Virus record (IMG/VR): IMGVR_UViG_3300033144_005674
Coordinates: 1 to 20,898 of that record
Length of the DNA stretch: 20,898 nt
Reading direction: 5' to 3' (one strand)
Origin: a virus
A program made the translations under genes and the position numbers. Positions 3,065 through 13,775 of the stretch are shown in pieces (the first letter of the stretch is position 1; the number at the start of each line of letters is the position of its first letter). Under the pieces are notes generated by a model, which worked only from the letters and a program-made list of their open reading frames with translations, did not search any database and had not been told where the DNA came from.

Positions 3065-3979
3065 ATGGCATGGCACCTAAAGTTACATAACGATTTTGAT
3101 GCAGTTGGCAGTCGCATAATTGCTGAAGCCTCCGGGCTTGAAATTGTGTCTACTTCATATCATACTTACAAAACCATAGATGAATCAATAGTAAACTATA
3201 TAAAAAACAAAGAATTTAGCAATGGAGATAGCCTGTTAATTTGCGATATATGTCCAACTAGAGAAACTGCCTTACTAATTGATAAAGAAGCAAAAAATGG
3301 ATTAGATGTTATTTTGGTAGATCACCACAAAACGCGTGCTTGGGTAGAAAAATACGAGTGGGCAACTGTAGATTTAACCAAATCAGCCACTGAAATTCTG
3401 TTTTCGCTATATGAGGGCAAAACAAAAGGCTCCCATGTGGATTTTATAAAGGCTGTAACTGCCTGGGATATATGGCAACTAGATTCACCTTACAGGGAAC
3501 GCGCAGAAAAGCTAAATACACTCTTGGGGTTTATAGGAAAAGACGCGTTTGTAAAGGCCTTTTTAGAAGATCTTAGTGCAGACACAACAGAGCCATTCAA
3601 AACTATTATAGGTTATCTTATTGCACGTAAAAAACGTTATGTTTCTCAGGTAATTAGAAACCAGTTAAGTAAAACAAGGTGCTATACAGACGGCTTCAGA
3701 AATCGATTCAAAATTATATTTGCAACTGACTACATTTCGGAAATAGGGCATGCAGCATTAGATCATATAGCTTCAGAAGACCTAAATTATATTTGCGTGA
3801 TCAATCCAATTACAAACGCCTGCTCCTTACGTGCAAGAGACGGCGAGGTCGATGTACAGGTAATCGCTAACTATTTTGGAGGTGGCGGACATCCTGGAGC
3901 AGCGGGCTTCCCATTCGATTTTACATCTTCTATAGAAGCTAACGTATGGAAATTATTGAATAGCTTAGAGATTGACTAA
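3065..3979 (+). CDS. DHH-DHHA1 family phosphoesterase (NrnA/RecJ-like)
   Basis: This 304-residue protein is a complete DHH-DHHA1 phosphoesterase, a family that uses two metal ions to cleave phosphodiester or phosphomonoester bonds in short RNA, pAp, cyclic dinucleotides or single-stranded DNA. Visible motifs: HNDFDAVGS (residues 8-16, metal ligands D10 and D12), CDICPT (D61), LVDHHK (the DHH triad at 86-88), AWDIW (D135) and the C-terminal DHHA1 signature GGGHPGAAGF (273-282) preceded by SLRARDG. All catalytic residues appear intact and the length fits NrnA-like enzymes. The gene is the only plus-strand gene, with its own TATAAT box and AGGAGGT site, and its stop overlaps the stop of the convergent 174-residue protein gene by 4 bases. 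It is not a structural protein; a nucleotide-recycling, nanoRNase or second-messenger-cleaving role is inferred. The substrate cannot be told from sequence. Confidence 0.92.
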   Translation: MAWHLKLHNDFDAVGSRIIAEASGLEIVSTSYHTYKTIDESIVNYIKNKEFSNGDSLLICDICPTRETALLIDKEAKNGLDVILVDHHKTRAWVEKYEWATVDLTKSATEILFSLYEGKTKGSHVDFIKAVTAWDIWQLDSPYRERAEKLNTLLGFIGKDAFVKAFLEDLSADTTEPFKTIIGYLIARKKRYVSQVIRNQLSKTRCYTDGFRNRFKIIFATDYISEIGHAALDHIASEDLNYICVINPITNACSLRARDGEVDVQVIANYFGGGGHPGAAGFPFDFTSSIEANVWKLLNSLEID

Positions 3980-10875: not shown

Positions 10876-11307
10876 TTATCCTAATTCATCAGACGGTGTA
10901 GGTGTTGGCAATTGCGCACCTTTAAATTCCTGAAGATCATCAAGCTCTCCTCGCAAAACGATTCTATCTTGCGGAGCAATCTTACCCTTTGAATCAAAAA
11001 ATTGCTTTATAGCTTTAGCTATCATAGTATTTTCAGGCATTACACCTGTAGCTCTTCCCTGCGTTTGGATTTGCTTAAATTCAGTGTTAATTTTGTCGTA
11101 TTTACCGGGCGGCATTTCTCCTGAGTGTTCTTTTTCCTTCAACCATATCTCTGGATTCATGTATAATAACGCCTTATCAAATAAACCTTTGCCTATTTCA
11201 AATTTAAACTTGAAATCATCACGCATCGCAGATACTAACATAAGTTTTTGAAAAAGGTTTAAGGACTGAAAGCGAGGATCAGTAGGAAGTACTTTAAAAT
11301 GGGTCAT
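10876..11307 (-). CDS. Tail assembly chaperone, frameshift-extension reading frame (gpT-like)
   Basis: The 143 codons from ATG 11307 encode a lysine-rich, helical protein (FQKLMLVSAMRDDFKFKFEI, then NPEIWLKEKEHSGEMPPGKYDKI) ending in a Pro/Thr tail. It lies between the first chaperone frame and the tape measure. The reading frame is open upstream of its ATG for 13 more codons, right up to the slippery heptamer at the end of the first frame, with no stop codon. A -1 shift there would append these 13 codons plus 143 residues to the first chaperone, giving a 322-residue fusion. The ATG has only a weak upstream GAG. This is the gpG/gpGT arrangement of tail chaperones; independent translation is possible but not required. 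Confidence 0.75.
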   Translation of the reverse strand: MTHFKVLPTDPRFQSLNLFQKLMLVSAMRDDFKFKFEIGKGLFDKALLYMNPEIWLKEKEHSGEMPPGKYDKINTEFKQIQTQGRATGVMPENTMIAKAIKQFFDSKGKIAPQDRIVLRGELDDLQEFKGAQLPTPTPSDELG

Positions 11308-11342
11308 TAACTCAAGATTAAATCTAAAAACACTATCCTTTT

Positions 11343-11843
11343 CTAGTTTTTTTTTGTTTCTTCAAACTTTTCGTTTATTTTCACTTGAAATTCCATGTAC
11401 TTATCGTACATACGGTCAATCATTTCCATTGATTTGATCTTTTCATGCAATATAATACGTGCCATAGTTAGTGATGACGGATGTTCGTTATGTTTTTCAT
11501 AATATTCTTGTTGTTCTTTTTGTGTAAGGACTAATGGTGTATGATTAATTGTAATAATAACTCTTGCTAATGTTTCCAGTTTTTCAGTAATTGCTTGTGC
11601 CCCTACTGTTTCAAATTTGTGTGCAGATTCAACTACATCGCGTAGTTCATTAGGTGTTAATGTTCTAAGTTTCATAACAAATTCGTGTTTATCATCTTTA
11701 TATACTATAATTGGCTCAGATTCAGCATAGCCAAGAAAGAATAACTGCTCAAACGCATAAAATTCAGTATTATGCGTTATATCGCCAATATCTTGTGGGG
11801 GTTCATTTGTAATATCTTTAGGAGCTTCTGGTTTTAACGTCAT
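11343..11843 (-). CDS. Tail assembly chaperone (gpG/XkdN-like)
   Basis: The 166-residue protein has the features of phage tail assembly chaperones, which coat the tape measure during tail assembly: an acidic Pro-rich N-terminus, a beta strand pair (IIVYKDDKHEFVMKLRTL) followed by TPNELRDVVESAHKF and a helical C-terminal half with TEKLETLARVIITINHTPLV, a common pattern of this family. The last codons are GAA ACA AAA AAA AAC TAG, which form the slippery heptamer A AAA AAC immediately before the stop. It lies between the tail tube and the tape measure. The start at 11843 has a modest purine-rich upstream sequence (CGAGAG). Confidence 0.85.
   Translation of the reverse strand: MTLKPEAPKDITNEPPQDIGDITHNTEFYAFEQLFFLGYAESEPIIVYKDDKHEFVMKLRTLTPNELRDVVESAHKFETVGAQAITEKLETLARVIITINHTPLVLTQKEQQEYYEKHNEHPSSLTMARIILHEKIKSMEMIDRMYDKYMEFQVKINEKFEETKKN
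11346..11352 (-). other. Programmed -1 ribosomal frameshift slippery heptamer A AAA AAC
   Basis: On the coding strand, the codons before the TAG stop are AAA AAA AAC; the heptamer A AAA AAC is in the zero frame. Slipping back one base makes both tRNAs re-pair with AAA and continues into CTA GAA AAG and so on, a frame open to the downstream chaperone gene. A weak hairpin of 7 pairs including a G-U (11324-11346) begins at the C of the heptamer, too close for a typical stimulator, so its role is doubtful. Confidence 0.85.
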
Positions 11844-11881: not shown

Positions 11882-12400
11882 CTAAGCTGGCGAAATTGGT
11901 AAATTTTGACCAGTTACAGTACGGCATTCAAATGTCATAGACTCTACTATTCTAGCAGTTCCAATGTTTACTTCTTTACTTGCTGCTGTAGCTACACAGT
12001 CTTCATAGGTGACCATTCTATATTCACTGTTAGCATCTCCAGGAGGTTCTGTGTTTCCAGATTGTGACGGGTTATTGGGAATAAACATCATCTCATGAAT
12101 ATGAAGTGATTGGTTCATATCCTCAATTGTATATATTTGGAAACCTAATGCCTGAAGAATCGATGTAGTATACAATTCAACATGATCGATACTTACTTGG
12201 ATATCAGTGCCAGCCCACACGATTTCTTTGGTCTGTGCACCTCTTGAGAAGTAAACTTCTCGAATACGTTCTGCTGTTCTTGAAAACGTAGATGAGAATT
12301 TCTCAAACGAGCCTATTTGTTTACCAGCACCCACAGTAATCGCATATGAGTAAAATACGCTATGCTGTGTGTTAGGCAATGCATTGTACGGATAAGGCAT
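11882..12400 (-). CDS. Tail tube protein
   Basis: The 172-residue protein lies immediately downstream of the sheath gene and upstream of the tail chaperones, exactly where myoviruses encode the tail tube. It is beta-rich and has the expected size. A stretch with FSSTFSRTAERIREVYFSRG is followed by VWAGTDIQVSIDHVELYT, resembling the alpha/beta layout of tube proteins in which strands alternate with one helix. A loop with PSQSGNTEPPGDA is probably flexible. The start at 12400 follows AGAGGTGA with 4-5 base spacing and 10 bases separate it from the sheath stop. The call rests mainly on order, size and pattern. Confidence 0.8.
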   Translation of the reverse strand: MPYPYNALPNTQHSVFYSYAITVGAGKQIGSFEKFSSTFSRTAERIREVYFSRGAQTKEIVWAGTDIQVSIDHVELYTTSILQALGFQIYTIEDMNQSLHIHEMMFIPNNPSQSGNTEPPGDANSEYRMVTYEDCVATAASKEVNIGTARIVESMTFECRTVTGQNLPISPA

Positions 12401-12410
12401 AATTCACCTC

Positions 12411-13775
12411 TTATGCAGTAAAGGATAATACAAACGTAAATGTTACATCCATCCACTGCAAACCAAACGCGGGTTTGATCTTTCCAGTAATGTTTAATTT
12501 GCGCGGTTCTATGCTATCCTGAGATACAGAGATAGCTTTATACTCAGATATAATAGCATCTGAAACCAATGAATTCAAAATGTTGGTTGATGCAGCTTGT
12601 ACCTGGCCTACCAATGTTTGTGTTATAGGTGCATTTCTAAACACATTCCACAAGCCGTCTCGCCAGTACTTTTTCACATAGTCTTTTACATCTTGGACAC
12701 CGAGCGCTTCTGTAAGTGCACTTGTTGTGTCAGTAGTAATAGCCATAACATTGCGTACTATTTCCCCTGTAATTTTAGCAGGAGAAACACCACGCTGTAC
12801 AAGATAGTTTAGCTCTTCTGGCGTAAAATTATCGTCAAACAGCACATTAGGGATAATTTCATCTGAGATCTCTCTACCAATTGCAACCGAGCACAGCTTT
12901 CCACCTAATGCAGCCGAATAGAAACGTGTGTCATAGCTTCCTGTATAGCCTACAACGCGACTAATTGCACCAGGAGTCATAGGAACTACCATGCGCTCAT
13001 GCGCGTAGCTCTGAGCGAACGTAGCAGCAGCCTGATAACCAGTGCCAGTTGGAAGAGAAGCTATTACTGTGCGTTCCTGCTTATTAGCTGGCTGCGAAGC
13101 CAATACTGCATGATTAAAGAAGATATTAGCAGCCGATGTAGTGTTTAATATGCCTGACGACATAGGATTCAGGAATAGTTTATAATCAGTAATCTTATCT
13201 AATTCATCACGCATTGCAATAAATGCGGTTTCAAGCTCTGCGTTAGTTGGGTTATCTGGATCGACTGCTGCGCTTAGGTTCAGTTGAGCTATAATAACAC
13301 CTAAAGCACCTGCATTTAATCCTAATGCACCGCCAACTGCAACATCATTTATTGTTCCATCTGTTCTCGTACCATTTCCGTGATCTTGATAAATAAGGTT
13401 CTCATTCAGATAGAGCATAGGAGTGTATGCAGATGCAGGACGCGTTTCAGTAAAGGTTACATAGTAGTTATCGGCTACAGTTGGTTCGCTTGCAGCACCG
13501 TTCCAATTAATAGTATTTCCGACTAAAGTATAGTCAGTACCAGCAACATAGCTAGCAATTCCTGGGAGATCTCCAACACTTACTATTTCATTAACAGCTG
13601 TAACCGTTGGCAGATTATCCCACGCGCCACCACCACGTATTAAACGTGTATCTTCTAGTAAGCGGTAGGGGTCGCCCTCACCTATATATACTGGGTATCG
13701 TTGGAAAAGCGGAGGAGCGATAATTCCCGCGTCATTTATGATTCTAACAATGATTCCAGGTATTCTTAGTGCCAT
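12411..13775 (-). CDS. Contractile tail sheath protein
   Basis: The 454-residue protein has the expected sheath layout: an N-terminal part entering with PGIIVRIINDAG, an immunoglobulin-like beta module (about residues 55-115, with VSVGDLPG, GTDYTLVGNTINW, YYVTFTE), a central alpha/beta region, then LNYLVQRGVSPAKITGEIVR and a C-terminal strand segment (LNITGKIKPAFGLQWMDV, then FTFVLSF) characteristic of sheath C-termini that lock neighbouring subunits together. It precedes the tail tube gene. Its length is slightly shorter than T4 gp18, in line with compact sheath proteins. The start at 13775 follows GGAGAAAAATCA. This establishes that the virion has a contractile tail. Confidence 0.9.
   Translation of the reverse strand: MALRIPGIIVRIINDAGIIAPPLFQRYPVYIGEGDPYRLLEDTRLIRGGGAWDNLPTVTAVNEIVSVGDLPGIASYVAGTDYTLVGNTINWNGAASEPTVADNYYVTFTETRPASAYTPMLYLNENLIYQDHGNGTRTDGTINDVAVGGALGLNAGALGVIIAQLNLSAAVDPDNPTNAELETAFIAMRDELDKITDYKLFLNPMSSGILNTTSAANIFFNHAVLASQPANKQERTVIASLPTGTGYQAAATFAQSYAHERMVVPMTPGAISRVVGYTGSYDTRFYSAALGGKLCSVAIGREISDEIIPNVLFDDNFTPEELNYLVQRGVSPAKITGEIVRNVMAITTDTTSALTEALGVQDVKDYVKKYWRDGLWNVFRNAPITQTLVGQVQAASTNILNSLVSDAIISEYKAISVSQDSIEPRKLNITGKIKPAFGLQWMDVTFTFVLSFTA

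Follow-up and report, generated by a model that had tools for sequence, protein, structure and literature searches.

The G/GT frameshift of tail assembly chaperone genes is textbook ribosomal recoding that fixes a protein ratio. In lambda (gpG/gpGT) and other tailed phages, two frames between the tube and tape measure genes give a short and a long product through a -1 shift, and in lambda it is the ribosome that slips. Bacillus phage G has a homologous pair, gp181/gp182, with T in the -1 frame and the order sheath, structural genes, G, T and tape measure; its A AAA AAC junction contains only six A's, is preceded at 12 nt by the Shine-Dalgarno-like AAGGA and is followed by a fold of about -14 kcal/mol, and from its sequence it looks like a ribosomal layout. 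In the Herelleviridae pair (BM15, phiAGATE, S2G3), T precedes the tail lysin/tape measure gene, lies in the +1 frame and is accompanied by no A-run. A longer or shorter product made from slipped mRNA is described for tssM (type VI secretion), mxiE/spa13 (type III secretion), Thermus dnaX and IS elements, which carry coding A/T runs of about 9-11 with a nearby stop (PMC4256274, PMC5009743, PMC6260861). For Citrobacter tssM, slippage was argued from the A-run and the absence of ribosomal stimulators and was backed by RNA analysis (PMC4256274). The open-access part of the literature, which cannot prove absence, yielded no description of transcriptional slippage in tail chaperones. The locus described here has the two-frame -1 layout of lambda, but with an A9-A10 tract and without recognisable ribosomal stimulators. 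It resembles the slippage genes in its coding A-run and nearby stop; those genes, however, are cellular or IS-borne and several have RNA or protein evidence, whereas this phage tail chaperone is known from sequence alone.

The junction lies in the window, by which we mean the whole 20,898-nucleotide stretch of viral DNA analysed, and the coordinates of its features are collected in Table 1. The upstream frame G ends in GAA GAA ACA AAA AAA AAC TAG. Its nine A's are followed by C 11346. One codon 5′ of A AAA AAC, and overlapping it, A AAA AAA forms another in-frame heptamer. The -1 frame is stop-free from just 5′ of the A-run down to 10876; from the heptamer it passes through 13 codons to ATG 11307, and translation across the junction gives a GT fusion of 322 aa. 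An earlier note on this DNA had reported the heptamer, the terminal AAA AAA AAC TAG, the 13-codon open stretch and the length of the fusion, and re-derivation returned every coordinate unchanged. In computed translations, one inserted A (A10) likewise brings T in frame and produces the 322-aa fusion, and one deleted A or two inserted A's lead to a stop within a few codons, with products of 169 and 170 aa.

Table 1. Features of the chaperone junction and neighbouring tail genes (window coordinates).
Feature	Coordinates	Strand	Basis or remark
Tail sheath protein	12411..13775	-	PHROG 2839 tail sheath 1.9e-6; phage G sheath 23% identical over 61%
Predicted tail tube protein	11882..12400	-	Position only, between sheath and chaperone
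Upstream tail assembly chaperone, gpG-like, 166 aa	11343..11843	-	Zero frame, stop TAG; relatives and predicted fold
Nine-A run, conserved slippage tract	11347..11355	-	9 or 10 A's at 19/19 loci, any codon phase
Heptamer A AAA AAC, in frame	11346..11352	-	Overlaps A AAA AAA at 11355-11349
13-codon -1 linker LEKDSVFRFNLEL before ATG 11307	11308..11346	-	Motif F-x-L-[DN]-L-x-I and part of T's first predicted helix
Downstream gpT-like chaperone segment, -1 frame, 156 aa from slip site	10876..11346	-	PHROGs 4988, 25000 and 1316 matches
Predicted tape measure protein, 809 aa	8442..10871	-	Position only, directly 3′ of T

As in G/GT-type pairs, the two frames sit between a tube gene and a tape measure gene, both predicted by position, and the gene order is sheath, (tube), G, T and the 809-aa ORF. 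PHROG/Pfam-type searches returned no family match for this last ORF, and no relative of the sheath was found in bacterial or archaeal genomes. A DHH-family phosphoesterase-like ORF of 304 aa (window 3065-3979, +) lies on the opposite strand within the baseplate/tail module, with Pfam DHH and DHHA1 matches just under the curated cut-offs.

By sequence, G gave no useful family match, Pfam included, and tblastn found no G in isolate phages. Its AlphaFold model (pLDDT 79) had as best PDB matches YqbN 3KLU (Z 7.0, 113 aligned, 4.2 A) and the HK97 chaperone 2OB9 (Z 6.8, 101 aligned), and the top BFVD matches were the Finch tail assembly chaperone and phage G gp181/gp182. The scores are moderate and the top matches all come from the expected family; the predicted fold of G is that of a tail assembly chaperone, related to the folds of the HK97 and YqbN proteins. 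T gave no useful Pfam match and its structure model is poor (pTM 0.29). It matches PHROGs 4988 and 25000 (tail assembly chaperone) as well as PHROG 1316 (labelled RNA polymerase beta subunit), and tblastn against isolate phages returned weak matches, mostly to Herelleviridae-type phages, whose T has the FKVLPTD motif in common with this one and often bears the annotation RNA polymerase beta subunit. The T homologue of many Staphylococcus phages carries this annotation. The name of PHROG 1316 looks wrong, since the gene so labelled in Staphylococcus phage S2G3 (L047:2992-3522) sits between the chaperone and the tail lysin gene, continuing in the +1 frame; the label on PHROG 1316 and the T homologues is a probable misannotation. 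More distant T homologues (L075, L078 and L081) are also in the +1 frame, have no long A-run and overlap G by about 150 nt, which is unusually long.

Direct scans recovered three loci and sheath-based scanning recovered more. After removal of near-duplicates, the set comprised 19 distinct loci, namely the window and 18 related IMG/VR loci; the close relatives are all metagenome contigs, and the loci are related, not independent. Protein G of the relatives is 34-84% identical. The earlier note had proposed an alignment of relatives as a check on its frameshift, and this alignment bore it out: the 9-10 A's and the open -1 frame are kept at every one of the 19 loci, T lying in the -1 frame relative to G throughout. 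An assembly error or a mutation in the A-run, with the true gene being a single ORF or broken, has a negligible probability; homopolymers are error-prone in sequencing and replication, but 19 independent contigs show one and the same -1 relation, each with 9 or 10 A's, and their stop positions differ; this concordance refutes such an error in practice.

The linker between the A-run and T has a near-constant length across the loci, and its residues are conserved in the -1 frame, roughly as F-x-L-[DN]-L-x-I followed by [FY]-[KRQ]-[VI]-L-P-T. It is highly improbable that T is a separate protein initiated at ATG 11307. That codon is present, and an ATG precedes the conserved T core at 7/19 loci, but ATG, GTG and TTG are all absent before the core at 10 of the 19, and no candidate T start at the 19 loci has a Shine-Dalgarno sequence; on these two grounds an independent start was rejected. 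Furthermore, ATG 11307 is residue 14, and both the residue conservation and the first helix predicted for T (residues 5-17 in the low-confidence model) start 5′ of it. Because the linker is conserved in the -1 frame, no Shine-Dalgarno sequence is found, ten loci are startless and the helix begins upstream of the ATG, T needs a frameshift. The constant -1 relation, the conserved linker 5′ of ATG 11307 and the absence of a usable T start likewise make the GT fusion a conserved programmed product. The earlier assignment to the lambda gpG/gpGT type agrees with the gene order, the fold, the conserved -1 frame and the missing T start, and comparison of the sequences supports the two frames as such a tail assembly chaperone pair with G and a -1 GT fusion as predicted products.

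The short G/T overlap of every locus contains 9 or 10 consecutive A's. Given the shared -1 arrangement and the 9-10 A's at 19/19 loci, and no other A/T run of at least nine in 282 kb, the junction site is not a chance occurrence. The first A of the run is in codon position 1 at nine loci, position 2 at one and position 3 at nine, and about five changes of phase are placed on the sheath tree, at least two of them forced by well-supported branches. The run never falls below nine A's even as codons and residues vary, though a heptamer needs only 6-7. At two loci (L021 and L026) the G/T overlap is exactly AAAAAAATAG, so only the A-run can be the slip site there. The earlier note had named A AAA AAC as the main signal. 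This heptamer is indeed in frame in the window, but it is not conserved as such: A AAA AAA or A AAA AAG replaces it in some relatives, and what persists in every phase is an A-run of nine or more. Away from the junction, A/T runs of 6, 7, 8 and at least 9 numbered 319, 86, 13 and 0 in 282 kb of these loci, against 248, 80, 27 and 12.8 expected from dinucleotide shuffles, and the 90 in-frame A AAA AAN heptamers found elsewhere in ORFs all lay within runs 6-8 long. Across the whole records (about 0.97 Mb) there were 8 other distinct A/T runs of at least nine, in 3 records, several of them near gene starts or outside clear genes. Runs of nine are constant at the junction and rare elsewhere, and bare heptamers are tolerated elsewhere; the comparison shows selection for at least nine A's at the junction. 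Another possible slippage site is the A11 run at L050:1455 (G007:C1:86254-86264), close to the beginning of an adenine-methylase-like frame (YYGSKKKKIAK...).

A classical ribosomal -1 shift, with tandem tRNA slippage on A AAA AAC or A AAA AAA and the extra A's serving only as a second register, is a possible but doubtful account of the fusion. It is the known mechanism of tail chaperones such as those of lambda (PMC5009743), the homologous junction of phage G has a ribosomal look, and an in-frame A AAA AA[A/C/G] is present in 19/19 loci, so that every A9 run includes a good ribosomal -1 site. Against it stand the retention of nine or more A's in all phases, the phase-1 loci, which contain a single heptamer, and the 90 bare in-frame heptamers elsewhere. 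Neither a clear stimulatory fold nor a consistently spaced Shine-Dalgarno stimulator was found at the 16 loci analysed. In pseudoknot-free folding of the 3′ side, most z-scores fell between -2 and +2 and one locus reached -3.5 in one of four windows; upstream, Shine-Dalgarno-like letters stood about 2-7 nt away in some loci, with inconsistent spacing and no conservation. The hairpin that had been noted abutting the heptamer in the window is not meaningful as a structure, at -2.2 kcal/mol and z -0.28; an 80-nt stretch starting at the last base of the heptamer gave z +0.36. Weak ribosomal frameshift sites may do without stimulators. Ribosome sliding along poly-A without a heptamer slip is very unlikely. 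E. coli ribosomes do slide on iterated AAA codons, but A9 or A10 encoding three lysines yielded little product, and A11 was required (PMC4363877); the loci here have 9 or 10 A's.

RNA polymerase slippage is probably the main route to the fusion, favoured by the A9-A10 run in all phases, its avoidance elsewhere, the lack of recognisable stimulators and the contrast with phage G. On tracts of nine A's or T's, slippage by E. coli RNA polymerase is efficient (PMC5009743), selection against runs begins at nine in many bacteria (PMC1088944), and insertions outnumber deletions in A/T runs (PMC5574713). The T frame is the one reached by adding one A, the commonest slip, at 19/19 loci. On the other side, T-runs are more slippery than A-runs for E. 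coli RNA polymerase, and the direction depends on context (PMC6260861), and the avoidance of long A-runs elsewhere may reflect replication slippage and not transcription. No bacterial-type RNA polymerase large subunit (PF00623) was found in 10 of the longer records, all of them fragments. Transcriptional slippage had been raised earlier as a side possibility of the nine-A run; the conservation of the run and its avoidance elsewhere strengthen that suggestion, and the former emphasis on the ribosome is probably misplaced.

Under slippage by the polymerase, the two frames would form one gene unit for two tail assembly chaperones, G (166 aa) and G-T (322 aa). G would come from the majority of transcripts, those with nine A's. 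A minority would arise when RNA polymerase slips on A9 and adds one A (A10; +4 more rarely), and ordinary translation of the A10 mRNA, with T in frame, would yield ...EETKKK-LEKDSV...T. Ribosomes slipping -1 on the overlapping A AAA AAN heptamers may contribute in part. Tandem slippage on A AAA AAC, with Asn-tRNA in the A site, is expected to give mainly KKN-L. A KKK-L junction is expected both from polymerase addition of one A and from a ribosomal slip on the first heptamer, A AAA AAA, and a K-L peptide alone is therefore ambiguous. By analogy with lambda, we infer that G would coat the tape measure protein and that the T part of the fusion would recruit tube subunits.

That the A-run is kept here and almost nowhere else in this tailed bacterial virus and its relatives suggests that the polymerase rather than the ribosome slips. 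We consider the chances slightly better than even that a clade of contractile-tailed phages sets its G:GT ratio by polymerase slippage at A9-A10 and not by ribosomal frameshifting. On this reading the frameshift function would have been retained and the slipping machine exchanged: T stands in the +1 frame in Herelleviridae-like relatives, phage G has a -1 junction of ribosomal layout, and here the polymerase would slip. Searches for heptamers would by default class such A-run sites as ribosomal. If true, phages with homologous chaperones would serve one need with different machines, and the G:GT ratio would hinge on the polymerase and the conditions it works under instead of on tRNAs.
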